Assembly: GCF_000769655.1 (NCBI RefSeq)
Contig: NZ_CP008887.1
Coordinates: 124,001-188,000 of the forward strand
Source of the DNA: Thermococcus eurythermalis
GTDB taxonomy: Archaea; Methanobacteriota_B; Thermococci; Thermococcales; Thermococcaceae
Reading direction: 5' to 3'
Length of the DNA stretch: 64,000 nucleotides
The notes under the pieces are model-generated. The model searched no databases. It was given only the letters and a program-made list of their open reading frames with translations, and was not told where the DNA came from. Below, in pieces: positions 15,135-53,200 of the stretch. Position 1 is the stretch's first letter. Every line of letters starts with the position of its first letter. The translations under genes and the position numbers were made by a program.

Positions 15135-15176
15135 AAGCACTTATATATGCATGGGTGCCTTGTTATGGTGATAACC
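15135..15176 (+). promoter_or_regulatory. Promoter and ribosome site of the small frameshifted gene
   Basis: A BRE/TATA-like GCACTTATATATGC at about 15137-15150 lies about 27-40 nt before the ATG at 15177, and GGTGATAACC stands directly before that ATG. A complete promoter and ribosome site argues that the following 116-codon stretch is, or recently was, a real gene. Confidence 0.5.
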
Positions 15177-15525
15177 ATGAGGAGGGCTTACGAAATTCGC
15201 AGGAGGGTTTCAGAAAAGGAAAGGGGGGAGGGCCAAACCCTTCGTTAGCGTCGGCTCTGAGGAACTGCTGTTTGAGGTTCTAAAGGAAGGTCTGTTCTGG
15301 GCCGCCCTCGGCCGGCCGTCTGAGGTCATGCCGTTTCTGAGGGGCAAACTTTTGGGCAACGGCTTCAGCGAAGGCTCCAAGAGACAGCTCGAGTGGCTCC
15401 TCGACGAGCTCCAGAGCTTCTACGAGCGCGTCGCCTGCGGTGGCCGCGTGGAAGAAAGGCACCTGAGGGCAATCAAGTCCTTCCACAGGGACATAGTATC
15501 TGTCCTAGAGACGGAAGGGGCTTAG
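15177..15525 (+). pseudogene. Small conserved-looking protein, frameshifted at a G6 run
   Basis: Reading begins MRRAYEIRRRVSEKERG at 15177 after a good GGTGAT ribosome site, but that frame stops at 15248. The +1 frame continues immediately as AKPFVSVGSEELLFEVLKEG and on to a stop at 15525, with no start codon of its own before 15328. The switch falls at the run GGGGGG (about 15222-15228); removing one G gives a single reading frame of about 115 residues, acidic-basic and probably helical. I do not recognise the family. Either a true frameshift mutation, a one-base sequence error, or slippage at the homopolymer explains this. The 3' part alone (15328-15525) would encode 65 residues. Confidence 0.5.
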
Positions 15526-15536
15526 CTTTTTAACCC
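15524..15536 (+). promoter_or_regulatory. TATA box of the C/D-box guide RNA gene
   Basis: AGCTTTTTAACC lies about 25 nt before the predicted 5' end of the guide RNA at about 15555, the correct spacing for an archaeal promoter. Confidence 0.45.
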
Positions 15537-15553
15537 CTCTTCCCCACTCTTCT

Positions 15554-15609
15554 TGGGATGATGAGGGAAGTTTCGTCCGAGCGGTGAGGAAACTCGCATG
15601 GGCTGACCA
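15554..15609 (+). ncRNA. C/D-box sRNA guiding 2'-O-methylation of 16S rRNA
   Basis: All four boxes are present with ideal archaeal spacing: C box ATGATGA (15558-15564), D' box CCGA (15577-15580), C' box GTGAGGA (15584-15590) and D box CTGA (15603-15606). Both guide spacers are exactly 12 nt. In the D guide, ten bases (ACTCGCATGG, 15592-15601) are perfectly complementary to the 16S rRNA of this window (plus-strand 52761-52770). By the D+5 rule the target is the U at about nucleotide 52 of 16S. The D' guide (15565-15576) pairs less well; GGAAGTTTCG matches 16S antisense at 52462-52471 with one mismatch. It sits between protein genes with its own TATA box. Confidence 0.8.
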
Positions 15610-15658
15610 ACCCTCAACCTTTTAAAAGGCTCTTCTTTTTGCTCTCCGGGGGCCAAAA

Positions 15659-51330: not shown

Positions 51331-52818
<1,488 letters not shown>

Positions 52819-53200
52819 TGAGCAAGGAGTACGGCCGGTGGAACTCCCCTCAAATGGGGGAGTACCGATTCCCGTCCGGGGGTTTGGTCGGGGTGTCGGG
52901 CCTGCCTTACCCCCGAGGGGTCCGCCTTTCGGCGTTTCCTCGGGAGCGCACCTCGTGTAACCCGGACTGGAGGGCGGGGTTCATCGTTGGGTGCTTTGCA
53001 CCCGTTCCCCCCGACGCCGCCGTCTTGGCGTCCGGGTCTTCGTCGCCCCCTGTTCGGGGGCTCCACCCAATAGGGCTGAACCCCCGCAGTGAAAAATTTT
53101 TGCAAAACCCGTGAGCGGGGAGATTTTTAGAAAAGAACCTGTCAAAAGAGAGAACCAAAATGCACAAAAATAGGCATGAAAATGTTAAAAATTTTTGCAG
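52819..53200 (-). promoter_or_regulatory. rRNA operon leader and promoter region
   Basis: From 52819 to about 53090 is G+C-rich precursor leader containing the 5' arm of the 16S processing stem (52865-52906). The A+T-rich stretch 53085-53200, after the prs stop codon, should hold the rRNA promoter; TATA-like candidates on the minus strand are near 53090-53100 and 53126-53136, and I cannot choose between them. No gene was seen here. Confidence 0.6.

Follow-up and report, generated by a model that had tools for sequence, protein, structure and literature searches.

The closest described relatives of the RNA reported here are the C/D box sRNAs of Pyrococcus, 46 of which are credited to Gaspin et al. 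(2000) in PMC7994747. The corresponding Rfam models snoPyro_CD (RF00095) and sR28 (RF01136) align over the whole of the present RNA, and architecture, size, k-turns and spacing are alike, but the guides differ and the scores stay below the gathering level. In the same family, sR26 of Pyrococcus furiosus forms a well-studied dual-guide RNP in which methylation takes place at the fifth nucleotide from both D and D' (PMC7089733), although on other targets than those considered here. A further comparison is provided by sR15 and sR17 of Nanoarchaeum equitans, in which two guides address distant 16S segments that are joined by one helix and for which a chaperone role was proposed (PMC4644070). In the present sRNA, by comparison, the helix concerned is helix 5 and the D' guide would bind just beside its 3' strand, with one mismatch.

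The window analysed here is a stretch of 64,000 nucleotides of the Thermococcus eurythermalis genome (contig NZ_CP008887.1, positions 124,001 to 188,000), in which positions 15554-15609 of the forward strand almost certainly constitute a complete archaeal C/D box sRNA gene. From 5' to 3', the RNA reads UGGG-AUGAUGA-GGGAAGUUUCGU-CCGA-GCG-GUGAGGA-AACUCGCAUGGG-CUGA-CCA. The original prediction had described C, D', C' and D boxes separated by two exact 12-nt spacers, and direct reading as well as a script confirmed this layout. The features of the gene and its targets are the following.

15527-15533, forward strand: TATA box UUUUUAA, centred about 25 nt upstream of the RNA 5' end
15554-15609, forward strand: C/D box sRNA gene, recognized by box architecture, sub-threshold Rfam C/D matches and presence in 86 of 94 genomes of the family
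15558-15564, forward strand: C box AUGAUGA, identical in 37 of the 39 distinct cores compared, the last base being U in the other two
15565-15576, forward strand: D' guide GGGAAGUUUCGU, conserved from +2 to +11 except for an AG/GA exchange at +8/+7
15577-15580, forward strand: D' box CCGA, one base off CUGA
15584-15590, forward strand: C' box GUGAGGA, with the form RUGANGA in 38 of the 39 cores
15591-15602, forward strand: D guide AACUCGCAUGGG, with ten Watson-Crick pairs to 16S 49-58 and A15598 as D+5
15603-15606, forward strand: D box CUGA, invariant in all 39 cores
52761-52770, reverse strand: target of the D guide by complementarity, 16S 49-58, which includes the 5' side of helix 5, with U52 at 52767 (16S located by Rfam)
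52462-52471, reverse strand: probable target of the D' guide, 16S 348-357, with A351 at 52468, nine of ten pairs for both guide variants and no variation of the site in 28 genomes

The C and D boxes match their consensus (RUGAUGA and CUGA, respectively) and C' departs from RUGAUGA at one base; this departure and that of D' are points against the prediction. A terminal stem of 3-4 bp can be drawn by inspection between 15553-15556 and 15607-15610, which leaves the usual 3-nt bulge of the k-turn; little covariation was observed in this stem among homologues. When both strands of the 64 kb were scanned for the C/D'/C'/D arrangement, exactly one candidate was returned, namely 15554-15609, and none was returned from 100 windows simulated on its dinucleotide statistics.

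The gene sits in a gap of 133 bp, as first described, between the stop codon of a small upstream gene (15523-15525) and the ATG of a helicase with AAA_11/AAA_12 domains (15659). Its own TATA box, likewise part of the original prediction, lies directly behind that stop codon, and most homologues have a TATA-like element at an almost equal distance. In PMC7994747, a TATA-like motif was reported for only about 20% of the archaeal C/D genes examined, and the conserved promoter of this sRNA is therefore mildly unusual. The helicase begins 50 bp downstream of the RNA. This proximity is what would favor a quite different view of the locus, in which the boxes are not an RNA gene at all and result from a chance match or belong to a k-turn element of the 5' leader of the helicase, as K-turn motifs located in such leaders may function in cis (PMC4247193). 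Nevertheless, judging by its sequence the helicase possesses a TATA-like element of its own behind the sRNA, and the distribution of the RNA among relatives also speaks against a leader element.

By nucleotide search, the sRNA was found in 86 of 94 Thermococcaceae genomes, with each of the six genera represented; among the 74 clean genomes with a completeness of 90% or more, 73 carry it. In parallel, a pattern search recovered it in 85 of the 115 genomes of the phylum sample and in none outside the family, while the reversed pattern used as a control gave no hit. In its own genus the sRNA mostly lies between the small conserved gene and the helicase. It is also kept in Pyrococcus and in genome G023, where none of the neighbour genes of the window was detected in the flanks examined; in G023, the orthologue spans C1:254607-254655 and the small upstream gene is located about 3 kb from the sRNA. 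We infer that G023 is T. kodakarensis, its C/D sRNA and 16S coordinates being in agreement with PMC9014305. Conservation across six genera is maintained even where the helicase is not a neighbour.

The conservation profile, built on 39 distinct 49-nt cores, follows the guides and not only the k-turns. Positions +2 to +10 of the D guide are invariant in all cores and +11 is A in 38 of them, whereas variation is found at +1, at +12, at the second base of D', at the fifth base of C' and in most of the D'-C' spacer. Such strictness at +2 to +11 with drift at +1, +12 and the spacer is the profile predicted by a guide-target duplex of 10 bp. The spread of homologues, the different neighbourhoods and the conservation of guide positions nearly exclude the view that the locus is not an RNA gene, which is left with a very small probability.

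The same guide-position conservation, the TATA box, the differing neighbourhoods and the presence in the T. eurythermalis genome of adjacent fibrillarin and Nop-domain genes strongly support the original prediction of a C/D guide RNA with a 16S target. It is highly probable, as far as can be judged from sequence, that the locus represents a free-standing C/D sRNA gene with its own promoter, the D guide of which would direct methylation of U52 while the D' guide would most likely address 16S 348-357. In this mechanism, the sRNA would be transcribed from its own promoter and L7Ae, Nop5 and fibrillarin would assemble on it.

The original prediction had called this RNA unannotated, which holds for Rfam. 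A covariance search with archaeal C/D models, which it had put forward as a check, does match exactly the span of the sRNA (E values of 6e-7 for sR28 and 7e-4 for snoPyro_CD), but no Rfam family reached its gathering score there, sR28 scoring 32.2 bits against 39 and snoPyro_CD 27.3 against 45. The P. abyssi orthologue likewise falls under the gathering scores. The sRNA therefore belongs to none of the Rfam families and is left unreported by a standard Rfam run. The word unannotated holds less well for the literature: no sRNA at the orthologous place of T. kodakarensis or P. abyssi was found in the main texts examined, yet orthologues may already be present in published Pyrococcus or Thermococcus sRNA lists, such as the 61 C/D sRNAs of PMC9014305. 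The sRNA is well conserved but otherwise an ordinary representative of a class already known, and Rfam does not cover it at threshold. Annotation of Thermococcaceae genomes therefore misses this predicted family-wide guide for 16S methylation.

The ten consecutive bases of the D guide that had been matched to 16S 49-58 were found again, and this complementarity is kept in all 28 genomes in which both rRNAs are available, with 10/10 pairs in 27 of them and nine pairs plus one G-U in the remaining one. For comparison, about 0.5% of random 12-mers match 16S or 23S at all ten positions +2 to +11. The pairing of A15598 with U52 under the D+5 rule was also borne out. The 16S numbering presumes the 5' end given by Rfam and the helix assignment relies on a hand alignment to E. 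coli numbering, in which U52 corresponds to E. coli U56. The duplex of the D guide has a predicted energy of -18.6 kcal/mol. It is expected that the D guide pairs with 16S 49-58 and that a 2'-O-methyl group is placed by fibrillarin on U52, which belongs to the 5' strand of helix 5. In a cryo-EM study of the P. abyssi 30S subunit, 44 modifications of the 16S rRNA were reported and the parts of the text examined mention no 2'-O-methyl group at the U52 site; as far as these parts go, this silence counts against the methylation-guide reading.

An identical D guide core beside the D box was observed in C/D RNAs of Thermoproteales, namely of Pyrobaculum (L070 and L079) and of a Thermoproteaceae metagenome-assembled genome (L067), which differ from the present sRNA by their D' guides and share no other similarity with it. 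The region of 16S U52 is therefore targeted in another phylum too. The occurrence of this D guide in two phyla could reflect common origin or convergence. Furthermore, sR1 of Sulfolobus acidocaldarius is presumably assigned to 16S U52, the same target nucleotide as that of the present D guide.

The D' guide had been given no target in the original prediction and a likely one in the 16S rRNA was found here. Its core from +2 to +11 exists in two forms, GGAAGUUUCG for the own genus and GGAGAUUUCG for the five remaining genera, and 16S 348-357, which reads CGAAACCUCC and is invariant in 28 genomes, is the only site in 16S and 23S that matches both variants at 9/10. This site starts two bases past the 3' strand of helix 5 (341-346 in the own numbering), whereas U52 lies on the 5' strand. 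The single mismatch, an A-C opposition, falls at +8 in one group and at +7 in the other, and these are the only two variable positions of the D' core. At the corresponding window positions 15569-15570, the own genus has AG and the five others have GA, and neither GG nor AA occurs among the 39 distinct cores. GG at +8/+7 would pair perfectly with the 16S rRNA, and this perfect form is thus absent from the cores. The AG/GA exchange sets one genus apart from all others and may have arisen only once on the tree; for this reason, selection for the D' mismatch is not demonstrated.

A random guide has a 12-15% chance of matching some rRNA site at 9/10. The case for the D' target hence rests on its location beside helix 5 and on the fact that variable and mismatched positions coincide, both of which were noticed after the fact. 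On these grounds, the assignment of the D' guide to 16S 348-357 is considered reasonably likely and, by the D'+5 rule, A351 would be the predicted target nucleotide. The D' guide would most likely pair with this segment and A351 would be methylated, perhaps less efficiently, or the segment would merely be held.

Other targets were considered for the D' guide and set aside. The 23S segment 2115-2124 gives 8/10 pairs, yet it varies between genomes while the guide is constant, and 23S 2038 reaches only 7/10. When exact matches to CGAAAYUUCC were sought in the own genome, five places were hit apart from the sRNA, none of which holds a tRNA or an Rfam RNA, and a target in tRNA or in another known RNA was rejected within the limit of exact matching. 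The mismatch was also thought of as a means of avoiding the anti-Shine-Dalgarno tail. This idea was dropped as another Pyrococcus guide contains GGAGGU, and it is contradicted as well by P. furiosus sR26, one substrate of which contains the anti-Shine-Dalgarno sequence in a form that pairs with this RNA (PMC7089733).

A single-guide RNA is the first of two further ways of reading these data. The D guide would act alone, on U52, while the D' guide would be kept for another RNA target or for the structure of the RNP and its match to 348-357 would be coincidental. The D' pairing is indeed always one mismatch short and its duplex is the weaker one, with about -12 to -13 kcal/mol against the value given above for the D guide, whereas a fully paired D' guide would reach -19.7 kcal/mol. 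The frequency of chance matches at 9/10 points in the same direction, as do the Pyrobaculum RNAs that combine the same D guide with unrelated D' guides. It is more difficult to reconcile with such a view that the D' guide is conserved from +2 to +11 as strictly as the D guide, that its core varies precisely where the mismatch falls, that the site adjoins the partner strand of the D target and that tRNA and other Rfam RNAs hold no exact D' match. A single guide is regarded as possible but rather unlikely, and a dual guide across helix 5 is the probable arrangement suggested by the sequences.

The position of the two targets on either side of one long-range helix raises the second possibility, that of an RNA acting as an rRNA folding chaperone first and as a methylation guide second. 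Each guide would retain one side of helix 5 until folding of the 5' domain is complete, and the D' mismatch would ease release. For other archaea, dual guides of this kind have been suggested to act as chaperones (PMC4644070), and one internal D' mismatch is retained here in every genome, but the AG/GA exchange behind this mismatch pattern may come from one event on the tree, as noted above. This chaperone role is considered unlikely. An intermediate version, in which the D guide would methylate U52 and the D' guide would not be an efficient methylation guide but a weak, releasable holder that aids folding of the 5' domain at high temperature, is put forward with equally low confidence. The preferred reading is that of a methylation guide for U52, with a D' guide that would either lead to methylation of A351 or just hold its segment. 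As targets, guide conservation and T. kodakarensis genetics are available, the sRNA offers a clean test of dual guides that bridge long-range rRNA helices; apart from this and from the annotation gap, it is a housekeeping RNA.

Several observations were made beside the main subject. Another C/D RNA of T. eurythermalis, located outside the window (genome G000, contig C1, 540120-540168), has a D guide, GGUUUCGCGGGG, that pairs by eye with 16S 346-354. Its site overlaps the D' target described above, and the two RNAs could compete or act in sequence.

The conserved small gene that immediately precedes the sRNA (window 15177-15525, forward strand) has homologues in 86 of the 115 genomes of the class (L203-L212) and bears no Pfam or NCBIfam name. 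It had been taken for a small frameshifted gene. As the shift of frame is present in nearly every relative checked, it is not a local lesion or mutation. A Shine-Dalgarno sequence GGUGAU (15167-15172) and an ATG (15177) open one frame, while the conserved protein frame (GG.xKP ... FLRGKL, 15181-15522) is +1 to that of the start codon, and the two meet at AGG-GGG-GAG (15222-15230). This arrangement, with the same junction or with AGG-AGG-G, is found in 51 of 53 distinct loci from all six genera, and the Pyrococcus copies, which are located elsewhere in the genome, have the same frame arrangement. This makes the gene, which occurs family-wide, a candidate for conserved programmed +1 frameshifting close to its start. 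Thermococcales are absent from a review of archaeal recoding (PMC8211752), and this gene is more surprising than the sRNA itself.

Finally, the H/ACA guide RNA Pab19 (RF02794, 95.5 bits) was located at 52956-53061 on the reverse strand, just upstream of 16S in the leader of the rRNA operon, a position at which this RNA is known.
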